A program made the position numbers and the translations under genes. DNA of 32,728 nucleotides from Nannocystis exedens (GTDB lineage: Bacteria; Myxococcota_A; Polyangia; Polyangiales; Polyangiaceae): NCBI GenBank assembly GCA_945865595.1, contig CAMBEV010000006.1:1-32728 (forward strand). The letters run 5' to 3'. Below the pieces are notes generated by a model. It was not told the origin of the DNA, did not search any database, and worked only from the letters and a program-made list of their open reading frames with translations. Shown here in pieces: positions 6,134-6,907 of the stretch. Within the stretch, counting starts at the first letter, position 1. Each line of letters starts with the position of its first letter.

Positions 6134-6907
6134 ATGGCAAGCAAATCTGTCCACCTGCCCGTGCTTCAGAGTGGGCTCGGAAACACGCTTCGACGCGACA
6201 ACTGGTGGGTCGGCCCGGCTACCACCGGGCTCGTGCTCGTCACCTTCATCGTGTACGCGACCTTTCGCGCCTTTGAGAACAAGTTCTACCTGAGCGGCCC
6301 GTACCTGTCGCCGATGTACTCGCCCCTCATTGACACGAGTTTTGCGAAGGGTTGGCCCATTCCCTTATCGGGCGCGATGCTCATCTTGGGCGGCCCCGGG
6401 TCGTTTCGCCTCACCTGCTACTATTACCGCAAAGCGTACTACCGCGCGTTTGCGATGGACCCGCCAGCGTGCGCGGTCGGCGAACGCAATGCGAAGAAAT
6501 ACAATGGCGAGACCAAGCTCTTGCTGTTTCAGAACTTGCACCGCTTCACGCTCTACGTGGCTATCGCGTTCCTGTTTTTCCTCTGGCACGACTCGGTGAT
6601 GGCCCTCATCGGTTGGAACGACGGCGTGCACCTCAAGGTCGGCACCCTCATCATCACGATGAACGCGACGTTGCTCTCGCTCTACACGTTCTCGTGTCAC
6701 GCATTTCGCCACTTGGTCGGCGGCAACGTGAACAGTTATTCGACCGCTCGCTTCGGCAAGCTTCGTCACTCGCTCTGGAAAACGGTCTCGACGCTCAACG
6801 AGAAGCACATGCTGTTCGCTTGGCTCAGCTTATTTGGCGTGATGTTGACCGACCTGTATGTGCGATCGGTTGCATGCGGCGCGATCACCGATGTGAGGTT
6901 CTTCTAA
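6134..6907 (+). CDS. sdhC: succinate dehydrogenase membrane anchor subunit (actinobacterial Sdh1-like)
   Basis: The 257-residue protein sits 1 base before sdhA. It has about five hydrophobic segments (near 28-45, 78-95, 137-157, 168-190 and 226-247). It does not look like the short SdhC/SdhD pair of E. coli or the five-helix diheme SdhC of Bacillus; instead it resembles the single anchor of the sdhCAB operons of actinobacteria (mycobacterial Sdh1 type). Conserved-looking polar residues in or near the membrane are Cys95 (RLTCYYYRK), Cys113 (PPACAVG), His136 (NLHRF), His152 (WHD), and Cys188/His189/His193 (SCHAFRH). The role is to hold SdhA and SdhB at the membrane and pass electrons to quinone. 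ATG 6134 is chosen because MASKSVHLPVLQSGLG resembles a natural start; 6071 and 5864 are in frame upstream. Confidence 0.8.
   Translation: MASKSVHLPVLQSGLGNTLRRDNWWVGPATTGLVLVTFIVYATFRAFENKFYLSGPYLSPMYSPLIDTSFAKGWPIPLSGAMLILGGPGSFRLTCYYYRKAYYRAFAMDPPACAVGERNAKKYNGETKLLLFQNLHRFTLYVAIAFLFFLWHDSVMALIGWNDGVHLKVGTLIITMNATLLSLYTFSCHAFRHLVGGNVNSYSTARFGKLRHSLWKTVSTLNEKHMLFAWLSLFGVMLTDLYVRSVACGAITDVRFF

Follow-up and report, generated by a model that had tools for sequence, protein, structure and literature searches.

Class F complex II has been described as an enzyme with a single membrane subunit that carries an integral-membrane Rieske cluster, with Mycobacterium smegmatis Sdh1 (7D6V) cited as its structure, and six helices are counted for its anchor (review PMC10238741). 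In this study we analyzed a window, the whole 32,728-nucleotide stretch of DNA under consideration, from the myxobacterium Nannocystis exedens. This stretch corresponds to contig C6 in a genome of 3.5 Mb in 423 contigs that is 90% complete. It contains an operon for which well-supported homology indicates a complex II of class F (Sdh1-type), an enzyme of a known type. From the observed gene order, the homology of all three subunits to a solved complex, the fold and the invariance of six residues, we conclude that the product is very probably a class F succinate:quinone oxidoreductase with a membrane Rieske-type relay. The window anchor is ordinary in kind, and its main use lies in annotation and in narrowing the set of cluster ligands.

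The sdhC gene and its operon

The reading frame assigned to the anchor in a preliminary description was confirmed, with an ATG at 6134 and a stop codon at 6905-6907. The features of the locus are as follows.

6134..6907, forward strand: sdhC, class F complex II membrane anchor, 257 aa; assigned by homology, fold and conserved start
6909..8723, forward strand: sdhA, flavoprotein subunit, 604 aa; matches PRK07803 and 7d6v_A
8726..9514, forward strand: sdhB, iron-sulfur subunit, 262 aa; matches PRK12386 and 7d6v_B
3872-4294 and 4310-4894: two AbiEi_4 antitoxin-like ORFs
inside the 4474-5787 frame: AbiEii nucleotidyltransferase
11643-12689: heme A synthase, COX15-CtaA (E 1.9e-109), downstream of the sdh operon

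A longer in-frame ORF from 5864 was considered and is an unlikely start, because residue 1 at 6134 is kept in three Myxococcales homologues (L002, L003 and L004). The three sdh genes form a tight operon with sdhC first, separated by 1 nt from sdhA, which is in turn separated by 2 nt from sdhB, and the order sdhC-A-B is also found in 43 homologous loci. Against NCBIfam, SdhA scored 985 bits for PRK07803 (cut-off 819) and SdhB 413 bits for PRK12386 (cut-off 256). His48 of SdhA, within GKAHTVMAEGG, occupies the usual position for covalent FAD, and SdhB has full Cys sets for its [2Fe-2S], [4Fe-4S] and [3Fe-4S] clusters (residues 53, 58, 61, 73, 144, 147, 150, 154, 201, 206, 207 and 211). Directly upstream of the operon, at window positions 3872-5787, are the genes of an AbiE-type (type IV) toxin-antitoxin system.

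The likeness of the anchor to mycobacterial Sdh1, first noted in the preliminary description, was borne out by sequence and by structure. When the complete set of PDB sequences was searched with phmmer at an E limit of 10, the only distinct sequence found was the Sdh1 anchor of M. smegmatis (7d6v_C/7d6x), which matched residues 17-256 with an E of 6.5e-51 and is 45% identical over 233 aligned columns. An AlphaFold2 model of the anchor, built from 33 sequences (mean pLDDT 77.9, pTM 0.76), aligned to 7d6v_C in VIA-align with a Z of 22.1 and an rmsd of 4.0 over 241 residues, the next best Z being 6.4; similarly, Foldseek gave 7d6v_C an E of 2.1e-14 and the next entry 0.3. No other complex II anchor was among the matches listed in the structural comparison, and a distant kinship to such anchors may exist. 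Additionally, the best PDB match of SdhA is 7d6v_A (E 6.4e-237; next complex II, 6lum_A, 5.5e-98) and that of SdhB is 7d6v_B (E 1.9e-109; next 1.8e-24). Up to an E of 1, no model in Pfam or NCBIfam matches the anchor, and 7d6v_C is likewise without a Pfam match. Thus a gene of this kind is easily left as hypothetical, and the complex II anchor of a genome that carries it is easily recorded as missing.

Membrane topology and invariant Cys and His residues

Predicted helices in the model span residues 26-48, 82-94/96-106, 130-159, 169-186/189-196, 208-222 and 225-247. Five are membrane helices, two of which are broken (at 94/96 and 187-188), and the segment at 208-222 is an amphipathic cytoplasmic helix, giving a total of six that matches the class F count. 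The pLDDT falls below 50 in loop 102-128, where Cys113 sits. Loops 107-129 and 197-224 carry the most positive charge (mean Lys plus Arg of 3.4 and 5.2, against 0.8 for loop 49-81 and 0.5 for loop 160-168), and therefore, by the positive-inside rule, these two loops are placed on the cytoplasmic side that faces SdhA and SdhB.

Conservation was measured in an alignment of 100 rows (93 distinct) from at least nine phyla, comprising the window anchor, 7d6v_C and 98 loci. Residue numbers of 7D6V were transferred through the phmmer alignment and are consistent with the chain range of the structural alignment. Invariant columns number 24 of 257, and exactly six of these are Cys or His, each present in 100/100 rows:

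6416..6418, forward strand: Cys95 (7D6V Cys114), break in membrane helix 2; candidate ligand
6470..6472, forward strand: Cys113 (7D6V Cys132), cytoplasmic loop between helices 2 and 3; candidate ligand
6539..6541, forward strand: His136 (7D6V His155), cytoplasmic end of membrane helix 3; candidate ligand
6695..6697, forward strand: Cys188 (7D6V Cys206), break in membrane helix 4; candidate ligand
6698..6700, forward strand: His189 (7D6V His207), membrane helix 4; candidate ligand or quinone-site residue
6806..6808, forward strand: His225 (7D6V His240), start of the last membrane helix, cytoplasmic side; candidate ligand

These six are half of the 12 Cys and His residues of the anchor, a share expected by chance in the 24 invariant columns with a P of about 2e-4. 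Five of them (C95, C113, C188, H136 and H189) were among the ligands suggested in the preliminary description, which also listed H152 and H193, two positions that vary, and did not include the invariant H225. The H152 column holds Tyr in 33, Lys in 29 and His in 12 of the 100 rows and is Y171 in 7D6V. The H193 column, which corresponds to H211 of 7D6V, holds His in 91 rows and Asn in 9, the latter all Bacillota of the Sulfobacillus type. Every Cys or His of the M. smegmatis anchor that is conserved across the family is also found in the window anchor.

A Rieske site consists of two Cys and two His. As six residues are invariant and four are needed, at least two of the six must serve otherwise, and the surplus may contribute to the quinone site or to contacts with SdhB. 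The placement of C95 and C188 at predicted helix breaks is suggestive of a ligand role, as a hint and no more. From homology, a Rieske cluster is predicted with high confidence in the window anchor. In the proposed path, succinate would be oxidized at the FAD of SdhA and electrons would reach the anchor by way of the three clusters of SdhB ([2Fe-2S], [4Fe-4S] and [3Fe-4S]). There, a Rieske-type [2Fe-2S] cluster near the cytoplasmic face, bound by two Cys and two His out of C95, C113, C188, H136, H189 and H225, would deliver them to a quinone that is most likely menaquinone.

As a separate observation, 60/100 anchors have a CxxC motif, with the consensus DCFSC, in the cytoplasmic loop that follows helix 4. 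Its columns correspond to residues 201 and 204 of the window anchor (window 6734-6745), which are S201 and T204 here, and the M. smegmatis anchor is also without the motif.

The six residues could be kept within an Sdh1-like fold that holds an altered metal site, such as one with three Cys and one His or with a different metal. Six invariant residues of ligand type do exceed the four that are needed. Furthermore, the CHxCxH stretch of 7D6V also holds C209 and H211, and C209 is replaced by Phe191 in the window anchor; if C209 were a ligand in 7D6V, the site of the window anchor would differ. However, most of the 100 rows hold Phe, Leu or Trp in the C209 column, and the family varies at C209 and H211 but never at the six, which makes a common site drawn from the six the simpler explanation. 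The 45% identity to 7d6v_C also speaks against an altered site, which we regard as very unlikely.

We also considered whether the anchor binds heme, as a diheme (class A/B-like) or monoheme protein whose His residues ligate b heme and in which the proton gradient drives electrons across the membrane. Three invariant His (136, 189 and 225) would be available for this role, and menaquinone-linked succinate oxidation is endergonic; in diheme enzymes the proton potential has been proposed as its driving force (PMC7447783). With the topology given above, however, each of the six invariant Cys and His falls either in the cytoplasmic half of one of helices 2 to 5 or in the cytoplasmic loop. The periplasmic half has no conserved His in the 100 anchors, since H152 and H166 both vary, which leaves no distal heme pair and disfavors a diheme arrangement. 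Heme ligation would also leave three invariant Cys unexplained, no heme-anchor chain in the PDB was matched by sequence, and the class of the homologue 7D6V is described with a Rieske cluster. Taken together, these points make a heme anchor extremely improbable, and we retain the membrane Rieske-type relay as the preferred reading. The preliminary description had further linked the anchor to work against a proton gradient. This link found no support, as nothing in the anchor resembles the distal cofactor of diheme enzymes; the arrangement argues against electron transfer across the membrane, and by inference succinate oxidation here would move no charge across it.

Distribution of class F anchors

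A contig search returned 50 relatives of the anchor, the closest named ones being the Myxococcales metagenome-assembled genomes (MAGs) nzgw257 (92% identity), nzgw256 (91%) and 336R (82%). Titles of the records include Myxococcales/Deltaproteobacteria, Acidobacteriales, Omnitrophota, Planctomycetota, Thermaceae, Chlamydiae, Actinomycetota, Bacillota/Sulfobacillus and Chthonomonadaceae; no relative was found among viral contigs. Class F anchors occur in 8/30 genomes of close relatives, in 29/284 sampled genomes of the same phylum, in 56/247 of Acidobacteriota (the phylum of record L005) and in 52/296 of the phylum of an Actinomycetota record (L010). They are rare (3/299) in a phylum sampled through a record titled Actinomycetes that groups with Bacillota in the tree. 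Most relatives are MAGs, so that single records may be misbinned, and the phylum-wide counts rest on no single record.

The preliminary description was correct that this anchor lies outside actinobacteria, where record titles also place holders in Bacillota, Planctomycetota, Deinococcota, Armatimonadota, Omnitrophota and Chlamydiota. It is not an isolated extension, however, as the counts for its own phylum and for Acidobacteriota show the anchor to be common. Type F is reportedly a recognised group in the survey of Karavaeva and Sousa from 2023. A maximum-likelihood tree joins the window anchor first to its own family (100/99) and next to rows from Acidobacteriota and Armatimonadota (98/94). 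In the same tree, the rows from Myxococcota are split over several separate groups, and M. smegmatis lies among the actinobacterial rows, a pattern compatible with repeated horizontal transfer. These results correct the picture of where class F anchors, and with them the predicted membrane Rieske-type respiratory wiring, occur, which is in at least nine phyla and not in actinobacteria only. The six-residue signature provides a direct test of ligand sets as well as a means to annotate class F. We tentatively raise a broader hypothesis, itself rather doubtful, that a membrane Rieske relay serves at least nine phyla as a major alternative to heme anchors and is exchanged horizontally, and that the large CxxC subset (60/100, to which the window anchor does not belong) may hold a further metal site or a redox switch.

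Several loci depart from the usual arrangement. In L012 (5464-7210) and L028, a class F sdhC is followed directly by sdhB, with no sdhA within the fetched stretch. An Armatimonadota (Chthonomonadaceae) locus, L040 (2235-3071), holds a class F anchor on a long branch with neither sdhA nor sdhB nearby. Another genome of the same family as the window genome (G289) has two class F anchors, on contigs C212 and C60.

Physiological context and comparison with known enzymes

Menaquinone is the likely quinone of this enzyme, because the futalosine family PF02621 is present in 3/3 genomes sampled from the same genus. Neither PF02621 nor a true MenD was found in the window genome at its 90% completeness. 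A MenD candidate in that genome was rejected, as it scores as an acetolactate-synthase-like enzyme. An aa3-type oxidase is suggested by the heme A synthase gene at 11643-12689.

The same complex might act in vivo mainly as a fumarate reductase, since complex II is reversible and its direction is not fixed by sequence alone; the genome also encodes a second complex II, of the Bacillus subtilis type (L055, 4148-7632 on contig C45). However, the nearest enzyme to have been studied, Sdh1 of M. smegmatis, is a succinate dehydrogenase, and the COX15-CtaA heme A synthase within the window points to an aerobic chain. We therefore regard fumarate reduction as the main role as unlikely and favor a complex that would run toward succinate oxidation.

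The B. subtilis-type succinate dehydrogenase is, like the class F enzyme, a complex II of this genome. It differs in that its SdhA matches sdhA_Bsu/PRK08641, its SdhB matches PRK08640 and its anchor is another protein, which no Pfam family matches up to an E of 1. The two types of complex II in one genome recall the mycobacterial pairing of Sdh1 and Sdh2. M. smegmatis Sdh2 (6LUM, class A diheme) shares homologous SdhA (6lum_A, E 5.5e-98) and SdhB (6lum_B, E 4.6e-18) subunits with the window operon. In contrast, its anchor has no sequence match to the one described here, and Sdh2 has several membrane subunits and two b hemes (PMC7447783).

The closest counterpart is M. smegmatis Sdh1 (7D6V, 7D6X). 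The window enzyme differs from it in its myxobacterial host, in an anchor identity of 45% and in the absence of the extra C209, C74 and C79 of 7D6V, with Phe191 at the position of C209. The two are alike in having three subunits, for each of which Sdh1 is the best PDB match, in the anchor fold and in the gene order C-A-B, that of sdh1CAB (PMC12713383). Furthermore, the six invariant Cys and His residues are common to both (C114, C132, H155, C206, H207 and H240 in M. smegmatis).
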